A program made the translations under genes and the position numbers. 45,019 nucleotides of DNA from Nitrospirales bacterium (GTDB lineage Bacteria; Nitrospirota; Nitrospiria; Nitrospirales; UBA8639), in contig BQIZ01000008.1 of the NCBI GenBank assembly GCA_021604365.1, positions 1-45,019 of the forward strand, written 5' to 3'. Of the stretch, positions 15,819-34,950 are shown piece after piece. Every line of letters begins with the position of its first letter. Position 1 is the first letter of the stretch. Below the pieces are notes generated by a model. It was not told the origin of the DNA. It did not search any database and was given only the letters and a program-made list of their open reading frames with translations.

Positions 15819-15829
15819 GGATTCTCTCC

Positions 15830-16678
15830 TTACTTTTTCTTCCCAGCGGATTGCTTTCCTGTTGCCCTTCGTACTTTCCGTGCTATCTCTTCTTTTTTTT
15901 TCTTTTGGTATTTCTGGACTTTAAAATTTTCGCAACAAGAAGAAGAACAATATTTCATGCGATTTGACGCCGTCATAAAAAATTTGTGACAGCGGGGACA
16001 AGAAAGGATCTTACCGGGACCCAGCAAATCTAACATCAGCATAAGAGTTAAGTAACCGGTCAGACTTAGTGAAATCCAGACAAGTTCCCATTTCTCTTCC
16101 TGTGGATTCCAATTTAATTGCGGTTCAATACTGGATTCCTTGATGGTTTTGTTGACATAAATTTCGAGTGGTTCAAAGGAAAATTCTTGGAAAGCGTTCG
16201 AATTGGGTTTCTGAGAATATTTAATAACGTCGGCAAGATCCTTTTGCTCCTGTCGGAAATGACGAATAGGCATGGGTAAATTTTGGAGAATGGATGATAT
16301 GTCAATAGGAGAGCTTCTGTTTGGGTTCCACACATTTTCTTTTGTAATGCCTTCCATAGTCTTACCGAAAGATGTCTTTTTCTTATTTTGGTCAATGTGA
16401 CTTAAGACTAAAGTGTTTCCTAAAACTCCAAATCGCTCACAAAAGCTAAGTATTTCTTCCGGTTTTTCCGCATTTACACTGATAAATTCCAAGTACAGTG
16501 ATTTTTTTTCTCCCTGTCGAATTTCGCTAGCAGGGAAATATCTATCAAATGGGTTGTAAGGCTGAAAAGGTGGAATTGGCGTAATATTTTCTCCTTCTAA
16601 TTTGACGGAACTCCTGTACCAAGTACCTCGGAATAAGCCTTCCATTAGATTCTTTCCTCCCCAAATAAATTTTTTCAC
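15830..16678 (-). CDS. Hypothetical protein with C-terminal CGNR-like zinc finger
   Basis: ILSCPRCHKFFMTASNRMKYCSSSCCENFKVQKYQ. Confidence 0.55.
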   Translation of the reverse strand: MKKFIWGGKNLMEGLFRGTWYRSSVKLEGENITPIPPFQPYNPFDRYFPASEIRQGEKKSLYLEFISVNAEKPEEILSFCERFGVLGNTLVLSHIDQNKKKTSFGKTMEGITKENVWNPNRSSPIDISSILQNLPMPIRHFRQEQKDLADVIKYSQKPNSNAFQEFSFEPLEIYVNKTIKESSIEPQLNWNPQEEKWELVWISLSLTGYLTLMLMLDLLGPGKILSCPRCHKFFMTASNRMKYCSSSCCENFKVQKYQKKKKEEIARKVRRATGKQSAGKKK

Positions 16679-16800
16679 TAATCTTTTACCTTGTTACTAA
16701 TTTCACTATTATTTTAGTGTTATTAGTAAATAGGATATAGGCTTATATCACAATATTCTCCACCCCGGTCAATGGGGTATGGAACCAAGAAGGAGAAAAA

Positions 16801-17085
16801 ATGGAAAAAACCACAAAACGATTACTCACACTCATGGAATGTGAAACTCGAACAGGGCGCAAAGTTTCAACTTGGCGCAAGGCTATTGCGCGAAGAGAAG
16901 TTCCGTTCGTAAGAATTGGCCGAAGTGTGCGTATCCCTCAAGAATTCATTGAGGACCTTGTTACAAAAGGGTGGCGGGAACCTGTGAGTAGTCTGTCCAT
17001 CTCTGCGAGTTCCGTTGGATTAGTCAAAGATATAAAAAAGCATGCATCAGGGGGTATTAATGAAATATTGGAGGATAAATTTTGA
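16801..17085 (+). CDS. Excisionase/MerR-like helix-turn-helix DNA-binding protein
   Basis: RKVSTWRKAIARREVPFVRIGRSVRIPQEFIEDLV; location between int and primase; RBS AAGGAG. Confidence 0.7.
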   Translation: MEKTTKRLLTLMECETRTGRKVSTWRKAIARREVPFVRIGRSVRIPQEFIEDLVTKGWREPVSSLSISASSVGLVKDIKKHASGGINEILEDKF

Positions 17086-17103
17086 GGAGTTCATTTCAAA
17101 ATT

Positions 17104-19398
17104 TTGAATCTGTGGTTCCAAAAATTTATGAAAGCGACTGTGAATTATATGGATGATCCATTCGAATTTATCCCTTCTACTCTGAAACAAAGATGCCAAT
17201 GGGTGGTGTTTCGTTTGGAAATCCGCAATGGGAAATCCACCAAAATTCCTTATTCTTCCGCTAATCCCTCAAATTACGCAAATGTGACAGATTCCCATAC
17301 TTGGAGCACGTATGGCGAAGCAGTACAAGCCATGCAGAAAAATGATGTGAATGGAATTGGATTTGTCTTTGCACGGGAAGACGCTTTTTGTGGGATTGAT
17401 TTAGATCATTGTCGCAATCCCAAAACGGGGGAAATTGAGGAGTGGGCTCAAAAAATTATTACGGATTTAGATTCCTACAGCGAGATTTCTCCATCTGGTA
17501 CAGGTATCCATATCCTGGTTAAAGGAACCCTACCGCCTGGCAAACGAAGAAAAGGGAAGATTGAAATGTACGACCAGGAACGGTACTTTTGTATGACGGG
17601 AAATTCTTGCAAAGGCACTCCTAGAGACATTCACGAACGGGGATTTGAACTAGAACTTCTCCATTCCCAAATATTTGGCACAGCCAAACCTGACCACAAT
17701 TCCCCTCCCATTCCAAATCTTTCTCTACTGATATCCAACGGATTCGATGATGAGTCAGTAATTGTTAAAGCTAAACAGGCAATAAACGGGGATCTTTTTT
17801 CAGCATTGTGGGAAGGAAATTTCGAAAAGTATGACAGCCGGTCTGAAGCTGATCTAGCACTTTGCAGTCTCTTACGTTTTTGGACTGGGGGAAATCCCCA
17901 GCGCATAGATTGTTTATTTAGGCAATCAGGATTATATCGAGAAAAGTGGGATGAAAAGCATTACAGTGATGGACGTACGTACGGCCAAGCCACTATCGAG
18001 CAAGCTCTCAAAGGCTCTACAGAAATTTATCAACCCAAGAGTCACGGTCAAGATTTTCGGTCGTCAGAAATCAGATTTCCCCTCGAAGTGCTCCCCTCTC
18101 CCCTTCGAGAGTATACCCAAAAATTAGCCGAAGCCTTACCCGTTCCTATAGATCTTGTGGGAGTTAGTGTGCTGGTAGCGGCGGCGTCAGTCATTGGGGC
18201 CAGCCGAGTCATCGAAGTGAAACCAGGTTGGCACGAATCCCCCATTATATTTCTGGCTATTGTTGGGGATCCTGGAACCTTAAAAAGCCCTATGCTGCAT
18301 GACGTTTTACAACCCATTTCTCAGTACCAAGCTAAATTAGAGAAAGAATTTAACGAAGCATATTTTGTTTATAAACAAGACAAGCTGGTGTATGAAAAAG
18401 AAAAGCAATTATTTACAAAAGGAAAAAGAGAATCTCCCCCATGCGAACCTCAGGAACCTACGATGAAACGGGTGCGCGTAGGCGATATCACGGTTGAACG
18501 ATTAGGAGTAATGCTAAGTGAAAATCCGGAAGGGCTTTTGCTCGCCTGCGACGAACTCTCCGCATGGGTTAAGTCACAGAATCAATACAAAGGCGGCAAA
18601 GGAGCAGATCGCTCTTTTTACTTGTCCCTTTGGAATGCCGCTCAAATTATTATCGACCGTCAAAAAACGTCTCCTATTATTGTAAACAACCCTGTCATGT
18701 CCATAATGGGATGTATTCCACCTGCGGTCTTACCGGAACTTCAGGATAAGGAGAATCGAGAAGATGGCTTTATCCATCGCATCTTATTTGCCTACCCGAA
18801 ACCGGTCAGGCCATATTGGGAAGAAAATTCAGTGCCAGAAGAAATCCAACAAAATTATGAAAATCTGGTGAAGGGGTTAATTGAACTGAGGAAAGAACTT
18901 CATCCTTCAATTCTGAAATTCACCCCTTCAGCAAAGGAGACATTTAAGGTCTGGCATGATGCGCATGTCGAAGAATTCAGCTCTCCTACCTTTCCACCAA
19001 ATTTGAAAGGGTTTTATGCCAAGTTAAGAGGATACTGTGCACGATTGGCCCTCATTCTTGCTGTATGCTCTGACCCGAAGACCCAGGCCGTTGACAGGGA
19101 ATCCGTTGAAGGGGGTTGTGCTCTAACCGAATATTTCAAAGCACAGGCCGAAGCCATTCTCCCTTTGCTCAACCCTGGAAAACCCACTCCAGAAAAAAGG
19201 TGCGAACAAGCCATCCTCAGGAATTTAGAGACCAACAAAGAACAAACACGAAGAAATATTCAACGAAGTGTAAGCAGTTCCCCAGAAATATTCCACAAAG
19301 TTTTAGATGGGTTAGTTGAGGCTAAATGTGTCATGAAAATGAAAAACCCGAACCCTAAGGGTTCAGAGATATTTAAGCTTGCCAAAGAGGATAGGTGA
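17104..19398 (+). CDS. DUF3987-type primase/helicase of mobile element
   Basis: Primase-like N-terminus (GIGFVFAREDAFCGIDLDHCRNP, YSEISPSGTGIHILVKG) and ATPase with GDPGTLKSP Walker A. Confidence 0.82.
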   Translation: MNLWFQKFMKATVNYMDDPFEFIPSTLKQRCQWVVFRLEIRNGKSTKIPYSSANPSNYANVTDSHTWSTYGEAVQAMQKNDVNGIGFVFAREDAFCGIDLDHCRNPKTGEIEEWAQKIITDLDSYSEISPSGTGIHILVKGTLPPGKRRKGKIEMYDQERYFCMTGNSCKGTPRDIHERGFELELLHSQIFGTAKPDHNSPPIPNLSLLISNGFDDESVIVKAKQAINGDLFSALWEGNFEKYDSRSEADLALCSLLRFWTGGNPQRIDCLFRQSGLYREKWDEKHYSDGRTYGQATIEQALKGSTEIYQPKSHGQDFRSSEIRFPLEVLPSPLREYTQKLAEALPVPIDLVGVSVLVAAASVIGASRVIEVKPGWHESPIIFLAIVGDPGTLKSPMLHDVLQPISQYQAKLEKEFNEAYFVYKQDKLVYEKEKQLFTKGKRESPPCEPQEPTMKRVRVGDITVERLGVMLSENPEGLLLACDELSAWVKSQNQYKGGKGADRSFYLSLWNAAQIIIDRQKTSPIIVNNPVMSIMGCIPPAVLPELQDKENREDGFIHRILFAYPKPVRPYWEENSVPEEIQQNYENLVKGLIELRKELHPSILKFTPSAKETFKVWHDAHVEEFSSPTFPPNLKGFYAKLRGYCARLALILAVCSDPKTQAVDRESVEGGCALTEYFKAQAEAILPLLNPGKPTPEKRCEQAILRNLETNKEQTRRNIQRSVSSSPEIFHKVLDGLVEAKCVMKMKNPNPKGSEIFKLAKEDR

Positions 19399-19665
19399 AT
19401 ATTCTCTCCAATGGGTACCGACAACCTGACATCCAGGGATTATTCATGCCTGCATTGACTAAAAGTGTCGCAGAGATAGGGGTTCGACACCATCCGACAA
19501 CCAGGTGAATTTTAACGTCAGACGTTGCGTCGAATAATGTCAGCAGCTTTCTTCCCGACGCCTATCATTTTGATTGTAAAGTGGAAATGAGGAATTGTCG
19601 GGTGTCGGTAATATTTAGGTAGTTTCCAAAATGAAAAGAATAGCTCATGCAAAGGAGGTGACCCT

Positions 19666-20238
19666 ATGCAATGTACCGCCAAATCCAAACGGTCGGGGAA
19701 ACGATGTTGTAATAAACCAGTCAGGGGGAGGACAGTTTGTCGGATGCACGGGGGCAATTCCCGCCGAGGAATAGCCCATCCCAATTACCAGACTGGACGG
19801 TATGCCAAGGATCTTCCCCCAAAACTAGCTGAGCAATATGAAGCCAGCTTACAGTCACAGGCCCTAACCTCTTTACGAGGGGATTTGAGTCTCTGTGATA
19901 TTCGAATCGGTGAATTGTTAAGGAGGCTTACGGAGAAAAGGGAACCGCTAAATAGCCCCTTATGGAAAGCCATTTTGGAAGCTTTAGCTCAACGGCGAAA
20001 GTTGGTTGAAGTATACGATAAACATGCTATCGTCGAAAGGACTTATATCCCACTTGAGCAAGCCTCTCAAGTGATTAAAGCAATCAGCATGATGATAAAA
20101 GCTGAAGTTCGGAGCCTTATCGACCCTAAAACTGGAAGCCTTCTGTTAACCCGGCTTAGTCAGGAAATTTCTAAGTATTTACCTCCTCACGAAGTAGAGG
20201 AGAAAGAAAATTCTATTGGGAGGGAAACCAAATATTAA
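19666..20238 (+). CDS. HGG-motif phage/mobile-element protein of unknown function
   Basis: MQCTAKSKRSGKRCCNKPVRGRTVCRMHGGNSRRGIAHPNYQTGRYAK Cys/His-rich N-terminus. Confidence 0.65.
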   Translation: MQCTAKSKRSGKRCCNKPVRGRTVCRMHGGNSRRGIAHPNYQTGRYAKDLPPKLAEQYEASLQSQALTSLRGDLSLCDIRIGELLRRLTEKREPLNSPLWKAILEALAQRRKLVEVYDKHAIVERTYIPLEQASQVIKAISMMIKAEVRSLIDPKTGSLLLTRLSQEISKYLPPHEVEEKENSIGRETKY

Positions 20239-20608
20239 GGTGAAGATAAGTTTAAATTGATGATTTTCTGATTTCCTAGAGGAATCCTCTAGGTCATATC
20301 AAAAAGAGTAGTAGTGCAGTTAAAATAGGATCAGCCTTTTGTCTTCTTGAAATTATTCCCGCCGGTATGATTAATGGACTAGACTTAGTCTGCGGGTGTT
20401 TCTTCGCTATTAAAATATAATATAAACCTCTGTTACTTTTGAGTGGCCAAAATTTTAGTGTGGTAACCTTGTGTGCACGCGTAGTTCAAGCGAAATTTTT
20501 CTAAAATTTAAGTGCATACGCTAGTATTTAACCTTGGGAATACAAAACCCAGAAAGGGCAAGGTAGATTAAATTATTCCTAATTGAACACTGAGTTGACA
20601 AATCCTTC

Positions 20609-20630
20609 CTTGACTTATAGTCTACACAAG
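20609..20630 (+). promoter_or_regulatory. C-box (GACTTATAGTC) at the methyltransferase promoter
   Basis: TTGACA at 20595-20600 and GACTTATAGTC at 20612-20622 overlapping the expected -10 position; same core as upstream of the C gene. Confidence 0.7.
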
Positions 20631-20663
20631 TTTCTGTGCACTAATTTAACTTTTAAATTATAG

Positions 20664-22016
20664 TTGAAAATGCAGTTTGCCTTGAAAAGCCAAGAAATAC
20701 CCCAATCTCAATTCGATAGAGTGCTCAATGGAAATCGAAAGAATGGTCTTCAGGAACTTGATGCCCCTATTCACCGCTGGTGGAGATTTATCCTTGCCTT
20801 CCCCCCGCACTTAGTTTCCCAGTACCTCGACGAGTTTGGGTGTGAAGGTCCTGGTAGCACTGTATTAGATCCTTTTAGTGGGACCGGCACCACGCTTGTA
20901 GAAGCAAAGCGCCGAGGATGTTTTGCTATTGGTTTGGAAGCTCTAGACTTTTGTTTTCTGGCTTCCAAGGTTAAAACAACCTGGGAAATTTCATTACCCC
21001 AGCTTGAGAGGGAGAGCAAGAGACTTTTTGCGGACATTGCCGAAGAATTTTCCCAGTACGGTTTCTTTTCTGAGAACTCTCTATTCCAAGATTACCAAAA
21101 TTACCAAAATCCGATTGTATGTCCTTACAAACTCTCCCTCGACCAGCAAAAGCTTTTAGGAAAAGGTTATATATCGGATCGACCACTACAGAAGCTTCTC
21201 ACAATACAGAAATATGTCCTTTCACTGCCTCCTAGTCCTGTGGCAGATTTTTTTAAAATGGCACTTGGCAGCATGGCTGTTATAGCCTCTAACGTAGGGT
21301 TTGGACCTGAGATATATTGTAAGAAAATGAAGAAGGATGAGGATGTTTGGGCCTTGTTCTCTAATCAGATTAAGGAAATGCTAGCAGACCTTCAAATGAT
21401 ACAAAAAAAACGGTTTGGTCCTTCTTCTGTTTTTCATCAGGATGCCCGCACAATGAAGTCATTGGGGAATTTGAAAATAGATGCAGTTATTACGTCGCCA
21501 CCCTACCCAAACGAAAAAAACTACGGGCGTATTACAAGAATCGAGAATATAATAACCAATCTTATTCAAAATAAAGAAGACCTGAGGCGATTGAAGAAGG
21601 GTTTGATTCGTAGCAACAGTCAAAACATGTATAAGGGAGATGATGATCACAGATACGTTGAGAAATTTTCAAGCATTCAAAGAATAGCTAATGAAATAGA
21701 AGAACGTCGGCTCAGTTTAGGTAAAACTTCAGGCTGGGAAAAGCTCTACCCTCTTGTAGCCAAGAACTACTTTGGGGGTCTTTACCGCCACCTGTTGGAT
21801 TTGAAGCCTCTCTTAAAACGTGGTGGCCGCTGTGCCTATGTTGTCGGAGATCAAATGTCCTTCCTTATGGTCCATATAAAGACCGGAGAAATCCTTGCGG
21901 AACTTGCATCGGACATCGGGTATAAGATAGTTAAAATCGATCTTTGGCGGGAGCGTTGGGCTTCAGCGTCAAAGACACCGATTAGGGAAGAAGTTGTAGT
22001 ATTTAGTAAAAAGTGA
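20664..22016 (+). CDS. DNA methyltransferase (TSPPY type) of a Type II R-M system
   Basis: LDPFSGTGTTLVEAKRRGCFAIGLEA and VITSPPYPNEKNYGR motifs; adjacent convergent R and C genes. Confidence 0.88.
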   Translation: MKMQFALKSQEIPQSQFDRVLNGNRKNGLQELDAPIHRWWRFILAFPPHLVSQYLDEFGCEGPGSTVLDPFSGTGTTLVEAKRRGCFAIGLEALDFCFLASKVKTTWEISLPQLERESKRLFADIAEEFSQYGFFSENSLFQDYQNYQNPIVCPYKLSLDQQKLLGKGYISDRPLQKLLTIQKYVLSLPPSPVADFFKMALGSMAVIASNVGFGPEIYCKKMKKDEDVWALFSNQIKEMLADLQMIQKKRFGPSSVFHQDARTMKSLGNLKIDAVITSPPYPNEKNYGRITRIENIITNLIQNKEDLRRLKKGLIRSNSQNMYKGDDDHRYVEKFSSIQRIANEIEERRLSLGKTSGWEKLYPLVAKNYFGGLYRHLLDLKPLLKRGGRCAYVVGDQMSFLMVHIKTGEILAELASDIGYKIVKIDLWRERWASASKTPIREEVVVFSKK

Positions 22017-22024
22017 GACTGGTG

Positions 22025-22834
22025 TCAGTCCCACTCAAAGGCGTACCAATCCCGAATTTGGGTAAGTTCCGCCGGGTGGTCAACAAGTGCGAATTCTGCT
22101 AGGCAGATACGATTGGATGTGTCAGGTTTGGCACCAATAAGATGTTTTTGCATATTAGGCGGGAAGAACTGTTTCAATGCCTCACCAGCACCAAATAATT
22201 GCGAGACGTTCAAGCAATCTTCGGGAGCCTCATTTTTAGCCTCAACGGCAATTCCGACTTCCCGGTTTGTCGCTCTTCCCACATAAAGTTCATCGACTTC
22301 TACTTGACCATAATTCTTCACTCCAATTCTAAGGTGGGATTGGAGTCGAAAAGTGGATGTTAGTCCCAGATATTTTGCGATAAGGTCATTAGTTTGAATT
22401 CTCGTTAACATTCCCTGTTCATCGTGTCCCATATATGGGTTTACCCAACTGGGAGTTTTGTCAGATATTCGCTCTGACGAAATTGCGGGAGGAAATCGAA
22501 ACCTATTCGGAATGGGAATTCGCACAAAGGCATACTTTCCCTTACCTTTTCCTATGATGGCAAAATGTCCATCAGAAAGGATCTCATTTGGAAGGTCAGC
22601 TCTCGCCCGGAATGTGTAAAGAGCATCAGGGAAATTTTTGAGAACTAACTCTCGCTTACTTATTCCGTATCGGACAAGTTCACTCCCATGAAGTACAAGG
22701 CTGGTCTTGGTAAACGGGATGTAAGAAGGGTCCGTTGCCTTTTCCTTAGCTTCACGATATGTCGCTATGAACGCTGCTGCGTATTGATTTGGAATGTTTT
22801 CAAGACCTTGATACAAATTAGGAACGTTAGTCAT
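22025..22834 (-). CDS. Predicted Type II restriction endonuclease (PD-(D/E)xK-like)
   Basis: Convergent with MTase, follows C gene; GQVEVDELYVGRATNREVGIAVEAKN fits a D...ExK nuclease motif. Confidence 0.72.
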   Translation of the reverse strand: MTNVPNLYQGLENIPNQYAAAFIATYREAKEKATDPSYIPFTKTSLVLHGSELVRYGISKRELVLKNFPDALYTFRARADLPNEILSDGHFAIIGKGKGKYAFVRIPIPNRFRFPPAISSERISDKTPSWVNPYMGHDEQGMLTRIQTNDLIAKYLGLTSTFRLQSHLRIGVKNYGQVEVDELYVGRATNREVGIAVEAKNEAPEDCLNVSQLFGAGEALKQFFPPNMQKHLIGAKPDTSNRICLAEFALVDHPAELTQIRDWYAFEWD

Positions 22835-22841
22835 TACCTAA

Positions 22842-23063
22842 TTAGAAGCCCTTCATTAATTTTGAAATAGAAATTTGGAGAGCTTTGGCAATGACCTCAA
22901 TATTTCGCAGAGAAATATTACGCTTCCCACGTTCGATACCACTGATGTAGGTGCGGTCTAAACCGCATTTATCGGCAAAGGACTCTTGAGATAAACCCTT
23001 CTCTCTCCGTAACTGGCGAACGCGGTCTCCGAAGCTTTCGGCAATGTTATTCCGGTAATTCAC
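22842..23063 (-). CDS. Controller (C) protein, XRE-family HTH
   Basis: 73 aa; [52 protein letters not shown]. Confidence 0.88.
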
Positions 23064-23081
23064 AAGGCAAGCCTAGCGCCT

Positions 23082-23114
23082 TGTAGTAAATCAGTCTACG
23101 TACTATAAGTCACA
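23082..23114 (-). promoter_or_regulatory. C-protein operator upstream of C-R operon
   Basis: Minus strand ATGTGACTTATAGTACGTAGACTGATTTACTAC: GACTTATAGT-ACGTA-GACT arrangement resembling known C operators. Confidence 0.72.
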
Positions 23115-23721
23115 TTTAATTAAATGAATAAAATTTTCCGGAGGGATTTTTATTGAATTGTAAGACAATCTGATTAATCAAAAAATAAGGTTTAGAAGAA
23201 GATGACCGTTTACTGTTTTGATTAACACGCCTACAGAAAAAAAGCTGAAGTTGAAAATGTAGGGAGATCGATTACCAACTCCTAATTAAGCCCACCCTTG
23301 CCAGTTCCGGGGACAATGGCGGTGGCTTCGATTTCCAAGGAACCTATGTGGCCGAAGGGTTCGGTTGCTTAATGGCGGACGGTATTTCCTGTGCCGTCTT
23401 TGCCATAGATTGAACTACCAAAGTCAGAATGAGCCTCGTTGGAACGGTTGTGTCATAAGGCGCAATCCAATCCATCCCCTAATCAGAGCCCATAACAACA
23501 AGTAGTAATATTTCTTGTTTTTGAGAGGCGATTTCTATTTTTAAAAGAACCTGGTACTATCCTCAAAAATTACCCTCCCAAATTTTATTAGTATTTGGAA
23601 GATTTTTATTCCAGTTTAGTAAGCCTTAAAAGATCTTAGATTTTCTCATGAAACTTTTGCACTGGGGGTTTCCCCTCCACCCTACTATTTTTTCCATATA
23701 AACCGTAAGTTCGATTTTTTT

Positions 23722-25248
23722 ATGTTGACCTCAGATTCAACGGCACCAGTCTCTGGGACTGAATTATTTATTGGGTTGGTTGCTGCTGTTGGTACTAATC
23801 AGGATTTAATAGTTGAGGAAATATCCAAAGCTCTAAAAGTACTTCAGTTTGAAAGTCAGGAAATAAGGTTAATTCACCTTTTAAGGAGTACCCAAAAAAC
23901 AGAATGGCAGAAAATAACGGATAGCCCGATTGAAAAACGTTATCATGACAATATGGATGCTGGAAATGCCATGCGAGAAATGACAGGCAGGGGTGATGCA
24001 TTATCACTTCTGGGAATTACTGAAGTTCTTAATATACGAAATAATCCAAGTTTAAAAGATAAAAATATAGCCTACATTTTTCGCTCATTAAAGCATCCTG
24101 ATGAAGTGAAAACTTTTCGAAAAATATATGGGCCAAGTTTTATATTAATTTCAGCTTATGCGCCGCGAGAAATTCGTCACGAAAATTTAGCCAGAAAAAT
24201 TGCCGATTCGCATGGATATCTTGACCCAAACCCCTATTACACAGAGAGCTCAAACCTTATATTTCGTGATGAATGTGAAATGGATAAAAAATTAGGTCAA
24301 AACCTTCGTGATACTTTCCCAATGGCGGATGTTTTTATTGATGTAGGGAGCCATGGATTTCTTACTTCCTCGATTAAGCGTTTTGTGGAATTACTTTTTG
24401 GAAATACCTTCCATACTCCTACACGTGATGAATATGGCATGTTCCATGCGCAAGCCGCTGCTTTACGCTCTTCCTCATTGGGACGGCAAGTAGGCGCCGC
24501 CATTTCAAACGAGTCTGGAGATATTATTGCAGTAGGAACCAATGAAGTCCCGAAGCCAGGTGGTGGTCTTTATTGGGCAGAAGATACACCGGACCATCGG
24601 GACCATACACTTGGCGAAGATCCAAGTGACAAAATGAAAATGAATGTTTTTGTGGAGTTAGTTAAGCGACTCAAAGAGTCTCATTGGTTAGCAGATGAGC
24701 TGGCTAAAAAAGATCCCCAAGAACTTGCTTTAGAAGCCTTGGCTCCTGGTTCAACATTTTCATTGAAAAACACTCAATTAATGAACATCATTGAATTTGG
24801 TCGTGCTGTTCATGCCGAAATGGCTGCATTATTGGATGCAGCCTGCCGAGGAGTTTCAGTTAAAAACTGTACATTATATACAACAACCTTTCCTTGTCAT
24901 GATTGCGCGAAACATATAGTAGCTGCAGGAATAAAAAGAGTACTTTACATTGAGCCTTACCCCAAAAGTTTAGCGGTTGGACTATATCCAGATTCTATTT
25001 CCGTAGATAAACCAGAGGATAATACTAGTCGTGTGAAATTTGAACCTTTTGTAGGTTTAGCTCCCCGAAGGTATATGGAACTCTTTGAAATGTTGGATAG
25101 AAAAAAGGGTGGCAAAGTAATTGAGTGGGGAGGGCTATCACCACAACCAAGACTACCTAGTGATCCAAATTCCTACACGCTAAACGAAGTTAGGGGTTGT
25201 GAAACTATTCGAGGAAAAATGATTGAGTGTGATTTAATAAGTGCATAA
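23722..25248 (+). CDS. Anti-phage dCTP deaminase (AvcD/DcdV-like: P-loop-like domain + zinc deaminase domain)
   Basis: N-terminal ELFIGLVAAVGTNQDLIVEEI; C-terminal HAEMAALLDAACRG...TTFPCHDCAKHIVAAGIKRVLYIEPYPKS. Confidence 0.85.
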   Translation: MLTSDSTAPVSGTELFIGLVAAVGTNQDLIVEEISKALKVLQFESQEIRLIHLLRSTQKTEWQKITDSPIEKRYHDNMDAGNAMREMTGRGDALSLLGITEVLNIRNNPSLKDKNIAYIFRSLKHPDEVKTFRKIYGPSFILISAYAPREIRHENLARKIADSHGYLDPNPYYTESSNLIFRDECEMDKKLGQNLRDTFPMADVFIDVGSHGFLTSSIKRFVELLFGNTFHTPTRDEYGMFHAQAAALRSSSLGRQVGAAISNESGDIIAVGTNEVPKPGGGLYWAEDTPDHRDHTLGEDPSDKMKMNVFVELVKRLKESHWLADELAKKDPQELALEALAPGSTFSLKNTQLMNIIEFGRAVHAEMAALLDAACRGVSVKNCTLYTTTFPCHDCAKHIVAAGIKRVLYIEPYPKSLAVGLYPDSISVDKPEDNTSRVKFEPFVGLAPRRYMELFEMLDRKKGGKVIEWGGLSPQPRLPSDPNSYTLNEVRGCETIRGKMIECDLISA

Positions 25249-25272
25249 ATTGTAAAAAAAGGAGGGGAGGGT

Positions 25273-25443
25273 ATGAGTGAATCTAATAGGCTTGAGAGAG
25301 GGCTTGCCGAGGCTTCTGAAAAATTCAATAGTTTACCACCTTGGTTAAAAACCAAAGAACCCATTGAAGGATCTACAAAACGATTAGATTCAAGTAATAC
25401 AAGCTCCAAAGGTGAAAAAAAAGGGGGAGGTTCCCACGGTTAA
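25273..25443 (+). CDS. 56-aa small ORF directly downstream of the deaminase
   Basis: MSESNRLERGLAEASEKFNSLPPWLKTKEPIEGSTKRLDSSNTSSKGEKKGGGSHG*, preceded by AAGGAGGGGAGGG; not in the supplied ORF track. Confidence 0.6.
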   Translation: MSESNRLERGLAEASEKFNSLPPWLKTKEPIEGSTKRLDSSNTSSKGEKKGGGSHG

Positions 25444-25465
25444 ATTTTTTAATTATCTAGTAGTG

Positions 25466-25990
25466 GACCTGTAAGCTTCCCCTAAACATGGACAGGTAAA
25501 ACGTAGAACTTTCTGGCACAATTGGCTAAGGAGGTTCTCATGAAGCGGACCCGATTCAGCGAAAACCAAATTGTCACCATCTTAAAGTAAGCCAAAGCCG
25601 CCCTCTATTTTGGTTAAAAACTGTCTCGAAAGGGGGACCAACGTCACACGCTGGAATACTTTAGGTTCCAACTGTCCGCTTGCCGGGGAAGCTTACACGC
25701 ATACATCCTCTTGAGTTTCCCCAGTTCGCCTTAGACTTCCTTGAGTCGCTTGAGATCCGACGCCTCCAGCCCGCCGTACTTAGCCTTCCAGTTGTAAGAG
25801 GTCGCATCGCTAATCCCGTGTTCCCGACACAGATCTTTGACTTTGATGCCGCCGTTGCCTTGTTTCAAAATCGCAATAATTTGGGTTTCGCTGAATCGAG
25901 ACGTTTTCATGAGAACCTCCTGGGTAAATGATGCCAGAAAGCTCTACATTTGGTCTGTCCTCGATATGGGGAAGCTTACAGGGGCAGGTC
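25466..25990. mobile_element. IS3-family remnant: two inverted copies of the orfA-side end
   Basis: Left: CCTGTAAGCTTCCCC...ATGAAGCGGACCCGATTCAGCGAAAACCAAATTGTC (MKRTRFSENQIVTILK*). Right, reverse complement: CCTGTAAGCTTCCCC...MKTSRFSETQIIAILKQGNGGIKVKDLCREHGISDATSYNWKAKYGG with later stop. Confidence 0.8.
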
Positions 25991-26311
25991 AATATAGTAA
26001 TGATAAATATCTAAGTTCCTTTTCAGAAGGAAATTTATGTGGTTATGGATATAATTTAATCGAAACCATGAAACATAATTTTTTAAAAACCGGACCCAAA
26101 ATTTCAGAAGAAAAAATGAGTTTATTTGGGAAAGCTTGGACTTATTTCCTGGAAGAAGTCAGCATTAGGGGAATTGATATGCGGAGAGTTAATCGAGGGG
26201 AGAATTTGAAAATATTAAAACCAAAATCTGATTAGGTATGGTTCCAATAGAATGTCCAAACCAAGTAAGCCAAAACCTAATGTTCATAATGGAGCAACCA
26301 CTTGGGGCACG

Positions 26312-27352
26312 TCATGAATTGTTCCTTTTTTTAATGATAATTTTATCCTCATATTCCATACCAATTGCCATGAGGTTTTTTTGGAAATTAAATGCCAAGG
26401 AGGTGGTTGATTCGTCTATAGGGAAAACCCCAAAAGCTTGATTGTCTTTTTCACTAAAAACCATAACGTGGTCCATATAGGGATTTAAGACATACCAATT
26501 TCCATGAATTGGGTCATTTTCAAGGTCGGCACAACATTTAAAGAATCCCTTTTCTTCGAATTTTTCCTTCCTGTTTTCTTTAGGATTTTCATGGATTCGT
26601 ACCTCATCAATTTTCTTATTATTATTAATATCAATTATAGTGACTAAGGGGTCTATATTATCAGCCACATAAAGTAAGGTTCCTTCTGAATTCAATGCAA
26701 GGCCTGATGGCATTTTTCCGATTTGATTGATGCTTGCAATTTGTTTTTTAGCATTAAGATCAATGACACTAATAATAGGTGAGAACCCATGTGTTACATA
26801 TGCCCTAGATTCATCATGGCTGATTTCAACGTCTAATACTCCTTTATGTGAAAGAGGAATTTTCTTGTCAATTTTTAGGGAAGCCGTATCCACTAAAATT
26901 AAAAAAGGCTCATTTACGTTGCTTAGATAAAGTGTTTTACCATCGGCAGAGAGAGTACTAAAAAAGGAAATGAAAGAAGACCCTAAATTTATAGAACCTT
27001 GGGAGAGAAAGTTTTTCTTAATATTAATTTTCAGTAAATTCGCACTGCCTTCAGGAGTTGTTCTACCTAACAAATAGGCAAAATCTCCATTAAATATCAA
27101 CGAGTCAGGAAGTAAATTTGAAGGAAATTTCTGAATAGGTTCTTTAGAAGTCCAGTCATAAATTAAAAATTCATTTTCTTTTTTGCTAAAAACATATAAG
27201 AATTCTTCATCTGGAGTTTTGGAAAAAAAATTTGGAGATTGAACAGATAATTCTAAAAAAGTATTATAAGTTAAAAATTTATTTGAAAGGATACAACCAC
27301 ACAATAAGCTGAATGCCAGAAATATCTTAATGAACTTAAATGAGCGTGCCAT
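26312..27352 (-). CDS. YVTN/beta-propeller lipoprotein
   Basis: Lipobox-like LLCGC; repeats such as VISVIDLNAKKQIASINQIGKMPSGLALNSEGTLLYVADNIDPLVTIIDINNNKKIDEV. Confidence 0.75.
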   Translation of the reverse strand: MARSFKFIKIFLAFSLLCGCILSNKFLTYNTFLELSVQSPNFFSKTPDEEFLYVFSKKENEFLIYDWTSKEPIQKFPSNLLPDSLIFNGDFAYLLGRTTPEGSANLLKINIKKNFLSQGSINLGSSFISFFSTLSADGKTLYLSNVNEPFLILVDTASLKIDKKIPLSHKGVLDVEISHDESRAYVTHGFSPIISVIDLNAKKQIASINQIGKMPSGLALNSEGTLLYVADNIDPLVTIIDINNNKKIDEVRIHENPKENRKEKFEEKGFFKCCADLENDPIHGNWYVLNPYMDHVMVFSEKDNQAFGVFPIDESTTSLAFNFQKNLMAIGMEYEDKIIIKKRNNS

Positions 27353-27385
27353 TGAAAAATTTTGGGGCTTAGCTGTTAGACAATA

Positions 27386-28684
27386 TCATTCGTTTTGGTT
27401 TGGAGGAAACATGGTAAAGTGCGAAATCCCACTAGAAAAATCTATTAGGAGCCACTTTTGTTTAATCTTAGAAAATTCCTTTTCACCCAAAGGACTTACT
27501 TTTACTACCAAGGCCTCCACATTCTCTAATTTATAAGTTACAGGTAGTTTTTCACTAGCTTGAATCTCACCGTTTATACTATCCTCAATATCCTCAATTT
27601 TATAAGGATAATTACGTCTAGCTTTTGAAAACTTTATAATATTATTTTCCTCTGAAGTTGATGCCTCCTTAGTTGCGAAATGATGATGCCCTTTAAATAA
27701 AGGAAAAACTGTGATATTAACCCCGTATTCGGGTTCAGCCTGACTCTCGAATTTCTTGGAAAATCCAACTACAAGATTTCTAGTCGTTGAATACCTGAAC
27801 TCCCTGCCTTCAAGGGGTCGAACATATTTAACATCATCTTCTAGATAGCCAAACCAATTTAAATCCGTTCGAATTGAATCCATAATAGGTAGATAGCTCT
27901 CCACTTTCTCATTCAACAAAACGATTTCTTCCTTATAATCAGAAAGGCTACCTGGGACATAGGAAATCCCATTCGATAACAGAAAATTTTTGCAATAATG
28001 AAGTGGCAGGAAGTGGGTCTCTTCTCCAACCGGATTTAATTGCTGAATAATGCCCACCAACTTTTTTTCACCATTGAGCACTGGTCCTCCACTCATTCCA
28101 CTAGAAACATAATCCCCCAAACCTATAGGGCCACCCTCAAAAACAATTTTTACATCTAATTGATAACCCCTAAAAAAAGTTCTAGATCCTCCAAACTCTT
28201 TGGCGTGCCCTAAAAGGGACGTATTATATGGGACCTTTAGGTCATTTTCTTCGATCTCGGTTGAATCTCCAGGGATTAATGGTTTACTCGAGATATCCTC
28301 TCTGACCTTTAATAATGCCACATCCAAATACTTATTTACATCTAAAACGTCAGCGATGTTCCATATGTTATTTATTGAAGTATTTTTGAAATTTCCATAA
28401 GTTTGTATCTTTACAGAAAACTTATTGTTCAAGTTATGAGCAGCCGTAAGGATGTGTCCTCTTTCCGAAATAAAAAAACCAGTTCCAATGATTTCACTAG
28501 CACCATATGGTGGGGCCTTAATTATAACAATCGTTTCCTTTAAGTTTTCGGCAACACTAAATCCCTTTATTTCTTGTTTTTCAGTTTTTTGTTCTTGCCC
28601 TCCTCCGATAGATTGAGCCACCACCGAAAAGTTACAGAAAACCAAAACTATAAGGAGCAGTAATTGTCTTCCAAATCCGCCCAT
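27386..28684 (-). CDS. Exported trypsin-like serine protease with unique C-terminal region
   Basis: Signal peptide; GTGFFISERGHILTAAHNL (His), LDVALLKVRED (Asp), SSGMSGGPVLNGEKKLVGIIQ (Ser). Confidence 0.88.
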   Translation of the reverse strand: MGGFGRQLLLLIVLVFCNFSVVAQSIGGGQEQKTEKQEIKGFSVAENLKETIVIIKAPPYGASEIIGTGFFISERGHILTAAHNLNNKFSVKIQTYGNFKNTSINNIWNIADVLDVNKYLDVALLKVREDISSKPLIPGDSTEIEENDLKVPYNTSLLGHAKEFGGSRTFFRGYQLDVKIVFEGGPIGLGDYVSSGMSGGPVLNGEKKLVGIIQQLNPVGEETHFLPLHYCKNFLLSNGISYVPGSLSDYKEEIVLLNEKVESYLPIMDSIRTDLNWFGYLEDDVKYVRPLEGREFRYSTTRNLVVGFSKKFESQAEPEYGVNITVFPLFKGHHHFATKEASTSEENNIIKFSKARRNYPYKIEDIEDSINGEIQASEKLPVTYKLENVEALVVKVSPLGEKEFSKIKQKWLLIDFSSGISHFTMFPPNQNE

Positions 28685-28708
28685 ATGATTCCTTCGGCAA
28701 CAGCAAAA

Positions 28709-29266
28709 TTATTTAATGCCGGACATATAAACTTTTAATTTATTACTAAATACCTTCTCTCTTTCGATGCTTCCAACCTCAAAGACAAGAAAACTTACAC
28801 CTCCATTTCCTCCATATTTAAGTACAAATTCTGTTTCGTATACCGCATTGTCAAGTGTCAATATTGGGCCTTTCTTTTGGCCCTCTCGAATTGCCTCTTT
28901 TACTGCCTGGATTGCTCTGACCAATCCAAAATTCCCGTCTTCAGATGAGATTTCCTTATTTTCAGGGACCATAGTAAGATAAAATTTTTGTACACTTTGC
29001 GTAGAGCCTCCGCCCCCAGCGTTAAACTCAATTCCTGGTACAATTATTTTTAACCCCGCTTCTCCTGCGTTTACGGTGGCAATTGATAATTCCAAATCTA
29101 TTTTATCTATAAGAATCTTGGGGCGTTTCCCTACTTCCTGCGCCTGCGCAATAGTAATTTCCTTTTTAATATTCTGTAAAACTTCTCCAAGGGTAACAGG
29201 CTGCTCAGCAAAACTAGCATTAGTCAGGCTTGCGAAAAAGATAAATATGCCCATAATCGGAATCAT
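28709..29266 (-). CDS. Exported tandem Trypco2-like (trypsin-co-occurring) protein
   Basis: Signal peptide MIPIMGIFIFFASLTNASFA; two similar units LGEVLQNIKKEI..KILIDKIDLELSI..LKIIVPGIE...KFYLTMVP and LVRAIQAVKEAI..PILTLDNAVYETEFVL..VSFLVFEVGSIE. ATG 29266 with AGGAGA RBS. Confidence 0.62.
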   Translation of the reverse strand: MIPIMGIFIFFASLTNASFAEQPVTLGEVLQNIKKEITIAQAQEVGKRPKILIDKIDLELSIATVNAGEAGLKIIVPGIEFNAGGGGSTQSVQKFYLTMVPENKEISSEDGNFGLVRAIQAVKEAIREGQKKGPILTLDNAVYETEFVLKYGGNGGVSFLVFEVGSIEREKVFSNKLKVYMSGIK

Positions 29267-29630
29267 TTTTTGATCTCCTTTCACTTAATTCCTAATCATT
29301 AAAGAAAGAACTCATCTTTCCCCTAACAGGTAGAAGTATATTTAATTTTTACTCCGACATTTTATGATTCTTCTTTAAATAAATCAAAACTTAAAGGAAA
29401 AGGGCGGTATGCCAGAAATAGTTTGATGTGGTAGCAGGAAATTTTTCAAGAGAGACTCACACGCCCAGGACTGCCCTCAAAGGCAGACATTATTCCCTAA
29501 AGCCGTAGGTAGCATGTGAATCTCCAACGGATTCATCTGGTACGGCAGCAATAGGGGCTGGGACTTCCGAGCTGGAAACGCCGTAAAATTCTGCACGGGC
29601 TGCACCGTACAACCAAGAGCGAAGATCAAA

Positions 29631-29879
29631 CACGATATCTGGAGCTGGGATTTTGTCCACTACACTTATGCTCAGGGCGAACCCTTTTGGTGTTTGACCG
29701 TCAAAGATGAAGCCACGCGTTTTTGTTTAGCGATCAAAGTGGCTCGTTCATTGACCCATCGACAAGTTATTAAGGTGCTCAAGAGGTTCATCACTCGCCA
29801 TGGGCGACCACGGCATATTCGGAGTGATACCGGGCCAGAATTCATTGCCAGGAACCTCTCAACGGTATTGTCAACTTAA
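29631..29879 (+). pseudogene. IS3-family orfB (rve) transposase fragment
   Basis: HDIWSWDFVHYTYAQGEPFWCLTVKDEATRFCLAIKVARSLTHRQVIKVLKRFITRHGRPRHIRSDTGPEFIARNL then stop. Confidence 0.8.
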
Positions 29880-30083
29880 GTCAATTTGGGCTGATTTTCT
29901 ACCTAGGCCAGGTAATCTTAATGCTGAGCAATTAAAGAATTATGAATTCATAAATTGCCTAATGTTTGTCAAAATTCAGTTAACTTAACAATCCCATCGT
30001 CATAGTTGCTCTTTCCGAGCCAAGGTGGAACGAAGTGAGATGAACTTGGGTTGAGGCGTACATCAGGAAGTCGTTAACGACCG

Positions 30084-30280
30084 CGAAGATCCAAGATTTT
30101 CACTTCCATGATCTGCGGCACAAGTTTGCGTCTCGGTTGGTCCGAGCCAGAGTGGATTAGTACAAGGTCCAATGACCTTTTGGGCATCGCTCGCCGGTTA
30201 TGACGCAGCGGTATGCGAATCATTCATTGGAAAGCCTACGAAATGGGGTGAATGTGTTGGATCGGGAGGGGGTATCACAA
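30084..30280 (+). pseudogene. Degenerate tyrosine recombinase C-terminal fragment
   Basis: KIQDFHFHDLRHKFASRLVRARVD*YKVQ*PFGHRSPVMTQRYANHSLESLRNGVNVLDREG: HxxR, GHR and Tyr contexts with two stops. Confidence 0.8.
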
Positions 30281-30679
30281 ATTTATCACACCCCAATCCA
30301 GAGCAAGGCGAGACGTATTCCTAAGTGGCTGAAAAATAAAGTTGGGACGTGTCGGTGGCGAACCTATGGCCAGCTGATTGAAAGTTAGTTGGTCAGTTTG
30401 CCATAAGTCGTTTGAAAATCAACATTCAACGCATGCAAATCAGCTGCAGACGGTTTGGCAAGGGTACATCCCATTATATTTAGATTTAACTGGTGACGTT
30501 TAAATGGAAAAGTTGTTGATTCGCTGGTCCCGGTTTTAGTCCCGGTTTCTATCCCAATTCTAAGTCCATCTCAATCCTCCTCAATCTTACATGCCTCGGA
30601 TGGAACTTATTGATTGGTAAGACTTTTCGGTGACTTTATCCTCAGTAATCACATTAAATCTTCATTGCCTGAAAAGGGT

Positions 30680-30723
30680 TTTTGGATCTTAGAACCCAGG
30701 TTCGATTCCTGGTCCCCCAGCCA
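30680..30723 (+). repeat. attR: 44-bp duplicate of tRNA-Gln 3' end
   Basis: Identical to 14605-14648. Confidence 0.95.
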
Positions 30724-30763
30724 CCGCTTCCCCTCTCCCCCATTCCCAGCACAATGGCCTTGG

Positions 30764-32956
30764 TCAAAAATCAAAAACTCTTAATGATTCAAATTTGGCA
30801 TTGACCCCGAAAAAGAACCGACGACCCGGGCGGGGATATCCACGAATAGCTTCATAATTGGAATCCAAGATGTTTTCCACCATCACAAAGGGTTTAACAC
30901 CTTTCCAAACCTCATAAGCAATTTTCCCGTTGAACAAAAAACGACCTTGAACCTTAACGACCTCATTGGTGTCAAATTCGTTGGGATCCCCGGATAAAGC
31001 TTTGGTATCTAGGAAATCGCTTTGATAGGAACTTTGGACATATCCACTGAAACCCAGTGGCGAATCATAGTTTGCCAGCAGGGTTACCTGGTGTTTCGGT
31101 CTTTCCAAAAGAGCGGAGTCGGTGTCCAGAGGGGGAGCTCCCTGACCGGCGTCCAATGACCTCCCTCTTCCTTTGCTGTCGGTATTGACATAGGTATATC
31201 CCAGCCTTGTGGAAAATTGATTATTCCATTTCAGAGTCAGGAGTAATTCACTGCCGATAGTGGAAAAAGAATCGGTGTTATCGAATTCAACAGTTGACGT
31301 TCCAAAGGGCTGTAGGCTAATGGGCATGGTCCGGTCTTGGAGCTCGATCATATCATCCGCATCGTTGTAAAAAAACGTCGCCTCAACTTTAATCCGTTCC
31401 TTCCAGAAAAGTTGGGTGGCCCCGACTTCTAGGGAAAACACTTTTTCAGCATCGAGGTCGAGATTTCCAGCCCGAAAGCCATACACATTTTGCATGGTGG
31501 GCAAGTTATGACGCTGGGCGATGGTGGTATGGAGAATCGTCCCAGGCCAGGGTTTGTAGATCACCGACCCGTTCGGGCTGAACGCTGAGATCATCTTTGA
31601 TTGATCTGTTCTTTCAAAATGTGATTGGAGGGTGAATAATGCATCCCAATTTAACCCGGCAGAAAGCATCAAATTTTCCAGGGGCAAATATTCTGCCTGG
31701 GTGAAGAAATCGAGAGTTAACGTTTCAAATTTTTCATGTGGGCTAAGGGAATCCCTTTGCCGTATTACGTGCTCCCATCGGACGAATGTTCCGGCCTTGA
31801 CTGTTACGTCATCAATCGGTTCCACCGTAGCCTGAAGGTTTGATCCCAGGAGGAAATTATCAAAAACGCTCACTTCTTCCGCACCGGTGAAGCGGTTAGT
31901 GGCCACCGAGGAGTAGGTCTTATCATCATAGAAAGTCAGATCGTTGTCGAATTTGTCAAAATACACCTTCCCCTTGAAAAGGGTCGAATCAGAGACTCTG
32001 GTCTCTCCTGTGAGATCGAAAAAATAGCGTTGCCAGAAAGTGAAACGGCCAAATTCTGGTTGGAAGACCTTGTATCCAGTGGTAGGAGGGGGGATACCGA
32101 ATTTCGACTGGTAATACCCGCCAAGGAAAGCAATCTTATCGTCCTCGTTAAAGTCATATCCAAGATTAAGGGACAGGTTGTATTTTTCATAGTCACTCTG
32201 GAGCCGCAAGTCATCATTTGGTTGAAGAGAAGTAGGCGTGAAGTCATCAGATAATGGAAAACCATTGGTTTTTCGAATGCTTCCCGCCACGAAATACCGA
32301 AGTTTGTTTTTTTGGCTGCCATGCGATATTTGGTAGTCCTGGGAATTATGCTCTTCATAGGAAACGGTGGCTTCCGTGGTCGTCTTTGGAGTCCCTTGTT
32401 TCGTAATGATGTTAATCACACCGCCCATAGTGTTTGGTCCGAAGGGGGCAGAGGCCGGTCCTTTGACGATTTTTATTTTGGCCACGTTGTCAATGGGGAG
32501 GTTAAAGAGATCAACCGTTCCAAGAAACGGCTCAAGGACCGGTCTTCCATCGATGAACACCGAGTAGGTTTTATCGTTACTCGATAACCCTTGGCGGTGG
32601 CCTATCCCTCGAATGATGATGGATCCTTCATTTTGTAGCCCCCCCTGGCCATAAATGACCCCAGGCACAAATCGGAGAGCTTCGCCCACGTTTCTGGCAT
32701 TTTGGGCCAAAATATCCTTGGCGGTGACTTCATAGGTTCGGGAAGTGGGACCAAATCGTTCGCGATGAGTCGGAACTAACTCCCCCAAATCAAATGTCGT
32801 CAGACTCTCTTCGCGTAACAACGCAAGGGTATCCTCAGCCCCACCAATGGATGAATGCTTAGCACCAGAGACGACTTCAGGAAGAAGCATTGATACGGTA
32901 AGTACCCAAGAAAGGGCTAAGCTTCTCCTCAAGGATTGGCCGCTCAACACTCTCAT
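30764..32956 (-). CDS. TonB-dependent outer-membrane receptor
   Basis: Plug domain (AKDILAQNARNVGEALRFVPGVIYG...GGVINIITK), beta-barrel C-terminus ending in F; start at ATG 32956 preferred. Confidence 0.95.
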   Translation of the reverse strand: MRVLSGQSLRRSLALSWVLTVSMLLPEVVSGAKHSSIGGAEDTLALLREESLTTFDLGELVPTHRERFGPTSRTYEVTAKDILAQNARNVGEALRFVPGVIYGQGGLQNEGSIIIRGIGHRQGLSSNDKTYSVFIDGRPVLEPFLGTVDLFNLPIDNVAKIKIVKGPASAPFGPNTMGGVINIITKQGTPKTTTEATVSYEEHNSQDYQISHGSQKNKLRYFVAGSIRKTNGFPLSDDFTPTSLQPNDDLRLQSDYEKYNLSLNLGYDFNEDDKIAFLGGYYQSKFGIPPPTTGYKVFQPEFGRFTFWQRYFFDLTGETRVSDSTLFKGKVYFDKFDNDLTFYDDKTYSSVATNRFTGAEEVSVFDNFLLGSNLQATVEPIDDVTVKAGTFVRWEHVIRQRDSLSPHEKFETLTLDFFTQAEYLPLENLMLSAGLNWDALFTLQSHFERTDQSKMISAFSPNGSVIYKPWPGTILHTTIAQRHNLPTMQNVYGFRAGNLDLDAEKVFSLEVGATQLFWKERIKVEATFFYNDADDMIELQDRTMPISLQPFGTSTVEFDNTDSFSTIGSELLLTLKWNNQFSTRLGYTYVNTDSKGRGRSLDAGQGAPPLDTDSALLERPKHQVTLLANYDSPLGFSGYVQSSYQSDFLDTKALSGDPNEFDTNEVVKVQGRFLFNGKIAYEVWKGVKPFVMVENILDSNYEAIRGYPRPGRRFFFGVNAKFESLRVFDF

Positions 32957-32970
32957 GTGTTTTAACCCTT

Positions 32971-33014
32971 CTGAAAACAAAAACGCCTTTTGGGCATGGG
33001 CAAACCCAAAAGGC
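32971..33014 (-). terminator. Leader terminator/attenuator-like hairpin upstream of TonB receptor
   Basis: Minus strand GCCTTTTGGG-TTTGCCCATG-CCCAAAAGGC followed by GTTTTTGTTTT. Confidence 0.7.
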
Positions 33015-33257
33015 TATTACGGGGCCAGTCAAAAGTGCGCTGCGGTTAGAGGTTATCCCATGTCAATTTCTAGAATTTTTCCGTTCGTTTGGGCTTTGTT
33101 TCCTAAGCTTCTATAATTTTTGAGTTTCCCGTCCAACGCTATATGGTTTTTGTCACCGATGGGTATCTAGATCGAATGCGAAAAGTTGATCAAGCCGTGA
33201 GAGGTATGCGTCGGAAAGCATGGCTTCCCATCCTTTCTCTTTCATTTGACATGGTAC

Positions 33258-33344
33258 TCAGCGTGGCTTTCCCCAAATAAGGCGAACGGCGAGGGCTCCA
33301 AGCAGTGCTGTCATGATCCCGATAGTTAATACTATCCATTCCAT
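33258..33344 (-). CDS. 28-aa single-TM microprotein
   Basis: MEWIVLTIGIMTALLGALAVRLIWGKPR*, preceded on the minus strand by AGGAGACATTCATC; not in the supplied ORF track. Confidence 0.55.
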   Translation of the reverse strand: MEWIVLTIGIMTALLGALAVRLIWGKPR

Positions 33345-33787
33345 GATGAATGTCTCCTGGTTTATTTATCGTGGTATTCATGCAAAATGACTTTCATACA
33401 AAGAGCAACGCTTATACCGTCTGAATTCCTTCAAAGACACGAGACTGAAGCCTTCGGCTAACCCATTGTTTTTGCGGAAAATATTCGGAAAGTGAAGAAG
33501 GTGAATCCTGTTAGGACTTGACTGACTAGATATCTGAACAGATACACCTGTGTATCTATTTAGATACCTCATATATGAGCGGGGCTTACAGATAGGAACG
33601 GATATGAAACCAAACGGTTTGCCGCGAATGACACTATTGCCGGTCTTTCCAAGGTAAGGGCCGAGTCGGAAAAGGATGACCAGGCTTGAAAACTATAAAA
33701 ATATTTCGTTGTGCAGTGAAACCGAGGATGCTTCTATACCAACTCCACTGAACGGGTTCTCCCATTTGGGACCGGGGGTGTTATTAA

Positions 33788-33886
33788 GGGCACCTCTAAA
33801 AACTAATGATTTTTCGATTTTCTCATCTAAAAGCGCTTGAAATTATTGACGCCATGATTTTAAATTCTGTGTTTTTAGAGGTGCCC
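33788..33886. mobile_element. 99-bp MITE-like element with TTAA flanks
   Basis: GGGCACCTCTAAAAAC ... GTTTTTAGAGGTGCCC terminal inverted repeats, flanked on both sides by TTAA. Confidence 0.72.
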
Positions 33887-34101
33887 TTAACGAAGGCTGC
33901 AGAATTGATCGACTGAATGGCTGGTCCCAACGTTGGGACCGATTTCAGATTCATTCAGCCACAAGTATAATATACATGAAAAAGGCCAAACCCCTGTATT
34001 GATAAGGAACAGAAATTGTCTGGCCCTAGCGTCCACCTTCTTTTTTTTGAGGCAGATTTGAACAGACCATTCTTATTTCGAAACCGTTTAAAATCCACGC
34101 A

Positions 34102-34950
34102 TTATGTGGAGGATGCCTCAGTTTTTCTGATGCTGTCCAGCAATTTTTCCTGTGGTTCTCGCAAGGAGAGGTCTCGAATAAATCCGGAATAGGAGGGATG
34201 CGTTCCTGTCGTCCAGGAGTTCAAAGAGAGTTCAATGGGGAATTCCTCTCCGCTTTTCCTTAATCCATGGAGTACGACCGTTTTTCCGATGACGTGAGCT
34301 GCGCCTGTCGTCTGCAATCGTTTTATGCCTTTGGTATGAGCTTCCCGATATCGACTGGGCATGATCAGGGTCAGTGGTTTTCCAAACATTTCCTCTGCGG
34401 TATATTCAAACATCGATTCAGCAGCCTTATTCCACGACATGATGCGGCCGGTGTGATCGGCTAATACGATGGCATCAATGGCTGCTTGAAAGACGGCTTG
34501 AAAGCGGATTTCGCTTTCATACAAGGCGTGACGGGCACGTTCCATTTTTTTTGCCAGGGCATATGCCTTGAGTGCCTGCCGGACCGTGGACCTAATTTCG
34601 GAACGATTGATGGGTTTATGCAAATAGGCGAAAGCGCCTTGTTCCTCAAGGGGGCCGGTCACATCATCAAGCGTGGTATAACTCGACAAAATAATGATGG
34701 GAAGACCGGGCACCGCTTTTGTTAACTTTTCTAGAACGAGTAAGCCATCCATGTCAGGGAGTTTGACGTCCAGGATCACGACACTCGGCGAGTGATGTTT
34801 CACGCATTCCAAGGCGGTCACTCCTGTTGAGGCCACATTAATTTGATGTCCTTCGGCTTCGAGAAGATCTCGTAACGTTAGGACAATATCCTGTTCATCG
34901 TCGACAACGAGAATTGGGGAAAAGGAGGGTATTGGAGTGGTGGTTGCCAT
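34102..34950 (-). CDS. Response regulator receiver + PAS domain protein (paralog of 6132-7022)
   Basis: ILVVDDEQDIVLTLRD...VVILDVKLPDMDG; PAS AAIDAIVLADHTGRIMSWNKAAESMFEYTAEEMFGKPLTLIMP. Confidence 0.92.
   Translation of the reverse strand: MATTTPIPSFSPILVVDDEQDIVLTLRDLLEAEGHQINVASTGVTALECVKHHSPSVVILDVKLPDMDGLLVLEKLTKAVPGLPIIILSSYTTLDDVTGPLEEQGAFAYLHKPINRSEIRSTVRQALKAYALAKKMERARHALYESEIRFQAVFQAAIDAIVLADHTGRIMSWNKAAESMFEYTAEEMFGKPLTLIMPSRYREAHTKGIKRLQTTGAAHVIGKTVVLHGLRKSGEEFPIELSLNSWTTGTHPSYSGFIRDLSLREPQEKLLDSIRKTEASST

Follow-up and report, generated by a model that had tools for sequence, protein, structure and literature searches.

The Trypco1 and Trypco2 domains were named by Kaur et al. 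2020 (PMC7159879), a paper which ties them to the trypsins of MoxR-vWA-VMAP ternary systems, assigns Trypco2 to conflict systems and argues that most of these systems are without secretion features, so that a cytoplasmic mechanism is not simply transferable to the exported proteins described here. In the accessible text of the literature mentioning Trypco2 we found no description of an exported form. The cassette that we report, in a stretch of 45,019 nt (the window), combines a doubled Trypco2 protein with a trypsin-like protease and a beta-propeller lipoprotein. We propose, at roughly even confidence, that it represents an envelope Trypco2-protease partnership, in the periplasm or at the outer-membrane face, carried as conflict or defence cargo on mobile islands.

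The cassette consists of three co-directional ORFs on the minus strand, as the preliminary description of the sequence had it, separated by gaps of 24 and 33 bp. These encode a tandem Trypco2 protein of 185 aa (28709-29266, minus strand; Pfam PF19631 and translation), a trypsin-like serine protease of 432 aa (27386-28684, minus strand; Trypsin_2 E 1.8e-12) and a beta-propeller lipoprotein of 346 aa (26312-27352, minus strand; YVTN repeats, lipobox L-C-G-C20). All three products have signal-type N-termini, including MIPIMGIFIFFASLTNASFA in the Trypco2 protein and MGGFGRQLLLLIVLVFCNFSVVAQ in the protease, and the export proposed earlier for the whole set is thus also predicted here; all our export calls were made by inspection by eye along with a simple hydropathy score. 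At 35.5%, the G+C content of the cassette is below that of the window (about 46%) and of the flanking genes (50%). Consensus promoters were no more frequent than expected by chance, and the AlphaFold structure models (pLDDT 45 and 37) were too poor for fold comparison.

The Trypco2 gene starts at the ATG at 29266, and as the Shine-Dalgarno-like AAAGGAG lies just upstream of this codon, the longer ORF starting with GTG at 29284 is unlikely. The 28709-29266 protein matched PF19631 in two stretches (Pfam, E 1.4e-11, 44.9 bits with a cut-off of 24.2). An hmmsearch with a unit profile built from single-unit Trypco2 proteins only detected unit 1 at residues 21-101 (28964-29206, minus strand, 3.9e-16) and unit 2 at residues 109-182 (28721-28942, minus strand, 5.8e-9), and since this profile matches each unit separately we regard the doubling as real. 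The two Trypco2-like units noted before are hence substantiated both by a match above the curated cut-off and by an independent profile; the similarity of the 28709-29266 product to Trypco2, set beforehand as a refutation test, was confirmed by profile comparison.

The protease shows the His/Asp/Ser order of the trypsin fold, with His83 (28436-28438), Asp121 (28322-28324) and Ser198 within GMSGGP (28091-28093, all on the minus strand). All three residues are kept in the relatives from genome G393 and locus L020, in agreement with the intact triad described earlier. The C-terminal region of about 190 aa has no recognised fold. PADLOC recognised neither the Trypco2 protein nor the propeller, and its matches to the protease were limited to the trypsin part, among them a weak one to Avs1b (6e-6). 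No PDZ domain was detected in the protease by Pfam at E values up to 10, and the TIGR02037 score was 22 bits with a cut-off of 416; membership of HtrA/DegP was ruled out because the PDZ domain is missing and the family scores are far below their cut-offs.

The protease might still act in the manner of an HtrA/MarP-type envelope quality-control or stress protease riding the island, where the propeller would be a substrate adaptor, Trypco2 a regulator and the host would benefit under envelope stress. The nearest PDB match of the protease domain, HtrA1 (6.7e-7), the weak matches to the HtrA and MarP families and the export signals on all three products point in this direction. We consider it rather unlikely, given the missing PDZ domain and low HtrA family scores, the occurrence only on sporadic islands, in 3 of the 396 genomes of the phylum sample, and a partner, Trypco2, which belongs to a conflict-system family.

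The third product carries YVTN-type repeats (NCBIfam, 3.5e-14) and matches the surface-layer propeller of PDB 1l0q at E 1.8e-21, while the Pfam beta-propeller match is weak. The lipobox, identified by eye, reads LLCGC20 here and MMGGC in G393, with G19-C20 conserved between both propellers, and the previous reading of this gene as a lipobox beta-propeller therefore holds.

The island measures 16.1 kb and is bounded by exact 44-bp direct repeats of the tRNA-Gln 3' end. The integration site is tRNA-Gln (TTG) at 14575-14648 (plus strand, ARAGORN), with attL at 14605-14648 and attR at 30680-30723 (both plus strand), and a tyrosine integrase is encoded at 14586-15818 (minus strand, Phage_integrase E 1e-23). 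As the cassette lies inside these repeats together with the integrase, its description as cargo of a mobile island is well founded. Further island genes are a primase/helicase-like replication protein (17104-19398, plus strand; DUF3987 and NrS-1 polymerase HBD by Pfam), a type II DNA methyltransferase (20664-22016, plus strand; PADLOC MTase_II E 2.1e-33), a type II restriction endonuclease (22025-22834, minus strand; PADLOC REase_II E 1.4e-27), an R-M controller protein (22842-23063, minus strand; PADLOC Control_protein E 4.7e-27) and an AvcD-type dCTP/dCMP deaminase (23722-25248, plus strand; PADLOC dCTPase E 9.6e-152, dCMP deaminase Pfam 7e-17). AvcD is an established anti-phage deaminase (PMC10511110). 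Rfam showed no RNA near the deaminase or the cassette, nor any AvcI-like RNA.

A genome of the same genus (G191), with flanks 92-95% identical, is without 14661-34113, that is, the island and 3.4 kb beyond it. It does not show a simple empty site, because the adjoining 3.4 kb is missing too and the tRNA is followed almost straight by 34114. This adjoining part, absent in G191 and next to attR, is a TonB-dependent receptor stretch (30724-34113), which may represent another insertion at this site. Inspection by eye of the interval from the cassette to attR showed a transposase (rve) fragment (29694-29879, plus strand) and an integrase C-terminal remnant (30200-30388, plus strand), and these remnants suggest older insertions at that end of the island. 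Outside the island, at 42348-44007 (minus strand), the window encodes an NB-ARC/STAND NTPase with TPR repeats in two overlapping frames (42348-43478 and 43402-44007); this split gene is possibly broken or frameshifted, and related genomes differ in its repeat region too.

In the phylum sample the three genomes with Trypco2 all encode an exported two-unit protein. Altogether an exported tandem Trypco2 protein with an exported trypsin-like protease was found at five loci: the window, G393, L020, G055 and a Tunicatimonas plasmid. At each of them the Trypco2 gene adjoins the peptidase gene, as with the 24-bp gap in the window, and the triad is intact in all five proteases. Recurring linkage of all three genes had been set beforehand as a test, and the whole cassette was found in the same order in G393, a genome of the same taxonomic order from another family (locus L004: propeller lipoprotein 7089-8180, protease 8221-9387, tandem Trypco2 about 9410-9979). 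Identities to the window are 30% for the propeller, 25% for the protease and 36% for Trypco2. These two are the full cassettes known. Across the 233 genomes searched from the order, only these two genomes gave strong propeller matches (E 4e-188 and 3e-204), the next match being at 9.5e-13.

In G393 the cassette is flanked by a 47-bp att repeat (6845-6891) on one side and tRNA-Thr on the other, and this interval also encodes an integrase, AbiTii and a Rep_trans protein. Locus L004 has three tRNA-Thr att-like copies (2697-2741, 6845-6891 and 15355-15401), apparently from two tandem elements at one site, and a SoFic homologue is found between the inner element and the outer att-like copy. The same tRNA-Thr site in G055, from the genus of G393, holds an exported pair of another kind, in which a tandem Trypco2 protein accompanies a protease whose C-terminus is TPR-like, and no propeller. 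A pair of this G055 type is located on a 9.5-kb plasmid of Tunicatimonas pelagia (Bacteroidota; L011, NZ_CP120686.1) with a SieB-like gene nearby; the annotated start of its protease is too late, and an upstream in-frame ATG adds a signal-like N-terminus (L011 7833-7953). L020, a Pseudomonadota MAG, carries a window-type exported pair without propeller. The protease C-termini of the window and G393 are of one type (phmmer 6e-7), those of G055 and Tunicatimonas of another, and that of L020 stands alone. Known or putative anti-phage genes are among the neighbours at three of the five loci; beside the pairs of L020 and G055 no recognised anti-phage system was seen, only a HicB-type antitoxin in the vicinity of L020.

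It should be noted that the wider search relied on a manually written DNA pattern for the DLELSIA-GEAG motif, which gave 37 matches, several of them chance matches in unrelated proteins; the pattern favours window-like Trypco2 proteins, and counts from it are therefore not a census. A search with a three-sequence alignment gave nothing in genome or viral contigs. With tblastn, the window Trypco2 and protease had no match in plasmids, and the Trypco2 protein and propeller none in phage records; 251 Cytophagales genomes likewise gave no match. A weak match (E 0.1) to the G393 protein led to the Tunicatimonas plasmid, which was then confirmed by the plasmid annotation and by alignment.

The elements hosting these genes carry their own integrase and replication genes, the cassette is placed next to attR in the window, and the two-gene core is found beside a SieB-like gene on a small plasmid. 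All this would suit an exclusion or maintenance module that bars competing elements (conjugation, satellites, superinfecting phages) to the benefit of the element itself. We find such a role improbable, as no match to entry-exclusion families was detected by Pfam, NCBIfam or PADLOC, and it is set apart from the envelope conflict reading by beneficiary and target only.

Exported Trypco2 proteins are doubled in five of five cases, each directly beside an exported trypsin, and about 28 proteins with one Trypco2 unit, sampled from cyanobacteria, actinobacteria and proteobacteria, have no signal peptide by the hydropathy score. The partners at the examined single-unit loci are CHAT proteins in cyanobacteria, signal-less trypsins in proteobacteria and a trypsin-AAA/STAND protein in actinobacteria. 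The cyanobacterial genes lie directly before large CHAT (caspase-like) proteins at L029 (2133-7016), L030 (521-3241), L012, L016, L040 and L044, assigned by Pfam for the first two and by similar sequence for the remaining four; it seems from this that Trypco2 is more than a partner of trypsin alone. The preliminary description had named cytoplasmic STAND/EAD modules as the usual Trypco context. This is partly right, as a trypsin-STAND partner was seen, but the literature describes MoxR-vWA-VMAP systems, and cytoplasmic trypsin and CHAT partners are found here as well.

The protease is exported and its gene is immediately preceded by a small partner gene, and it could also be a secreted weapon, bacteriocin-like and aimed at competitors, with Trypco2 as the immunity protein. 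This we regard as very unlikely: the propeller is tethered to the cell by its lipobox, no secretion system or release gene was seen in the island in a Pfam scan of the main ORFs, and Trypco2 is exported together with the protease and is elsewhere found beside cytoplasmic proteases.

A tree of the units places the C-terminal ones in a single group (89/69), gives weak support to a single group of the N-terminal ones, and supports the window type and the plasmid type well for both units. This topology is consistent with a single ancient duplication that preceded the divergence of the types. Because only two of the five loci with exported proteins have the propeller, the constant core comprises Trypco2 and the protease; the variable parts are the protease C-terminal domain and the propeller lipoprotein. 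Such an arrangement, an unchanging core joined to partners that vary, is characteristic of conflict systems.

We arrive at the envelope conflict module as the best reading because anti-phage genes lie near three of the five loci and because Trypco2 has been placed among conflict systems (PMC7159879). The island context suggests a defence role for the cassette, and this context is a correlation. Such islands carry non-defence cargo too. The earlier suggestion of an envelope-acting protease system, possibly for defence, fits islands with R-M and AvcD here, AbiTii in G393 and a SieB-like gene on the plasmid; the propeller partner that was part of it is found at only two of the exported loci.

If the cassette acts in this way, the doubled Trypco2 protein would bind the exported protease and keep it inactive or aim it, and the propeller lipoprotein may anchor the complex at a membrane and have a sensor or adaptor role. 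An invader passing through the envelope, such as a phage tail or injected proteins and possibly conjugation, would then release the protease, and the freed enzyme might cut entry or envelope proteins, by which entry would be blocked or the infected cell killed. Further, we speculate, as a tentative extension that we hold to be doubtful, that there is a class of periplasmic protease-based immunity in which the protease is checked by doubled Trypco2, triggered by phage entry in the envelope and fitted with interchangeable sensing parts (propeller, TPR-like or other C-termini), as an envelope counterpart of the cytoplasmic trypsin/CHAT systems. Most known anti-phage systems act once DNA is in the cytoplasm, and an island-borne, regulated envelope protease module would, if true, bring protease-based immunity into the compartment through which phages have to pass. 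Together with its exported partner, the doubled Trypco2 would also be a small soluble system for probing whether the job of Trypco2 is that of inhibitor, adaptor or activator.

Compared with known systems, the cassette shares with the VMAP MoxR-vWA systems (PMC7159879) a Trypco2 protein above the Pfam cut-off directly beside a trypsin-like protease. It differs from them in that Trypco2 is doubled and exported, the protease has an extra C-terminal region and the third gene encodes a propeller lipoprotein. Pfam was run on the main ORFs of the island, few of which are shorter than 100 aa and to which the 132-aa ORF at 25837 does not belong. It detected no MoxR, vWA or VMAP gene among them, nor any STAND NTPase next to the protease or in fusion with it; since core genes are missing from the scanned ORFs, VMAP and trypsin-STAND/AVAST-type membership was ruled out. 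The cytoplasmic pairs at L053, L055, L031, L029 and L030 likewise have Trypco2 beside a peptidase-type protein, but there Trypco2 is single-unit and signal-less and the partner is a signal-less trypsin, a trypsin-AAA/STAND protein or a CHAT protein. HtrA/DegP and MarP are also exported trypsin-fold proteases, whereas the cassette protease is without PDZ, scores far below the cut-off and is island-borne with Trypco2. P22 SieA and T5 Llp are not known to be proteases or to have a Trypco2 partner. Their likeness to the cassette is one of functional analogy only, namely envelope-located interference with phage entry (SieA, PMC10883804; the Llp lipoprotein, PMC9586334). The cassette thus apparently represents an envelope branch, new to the literature, of the known Trypco2 conflict-system partnership.
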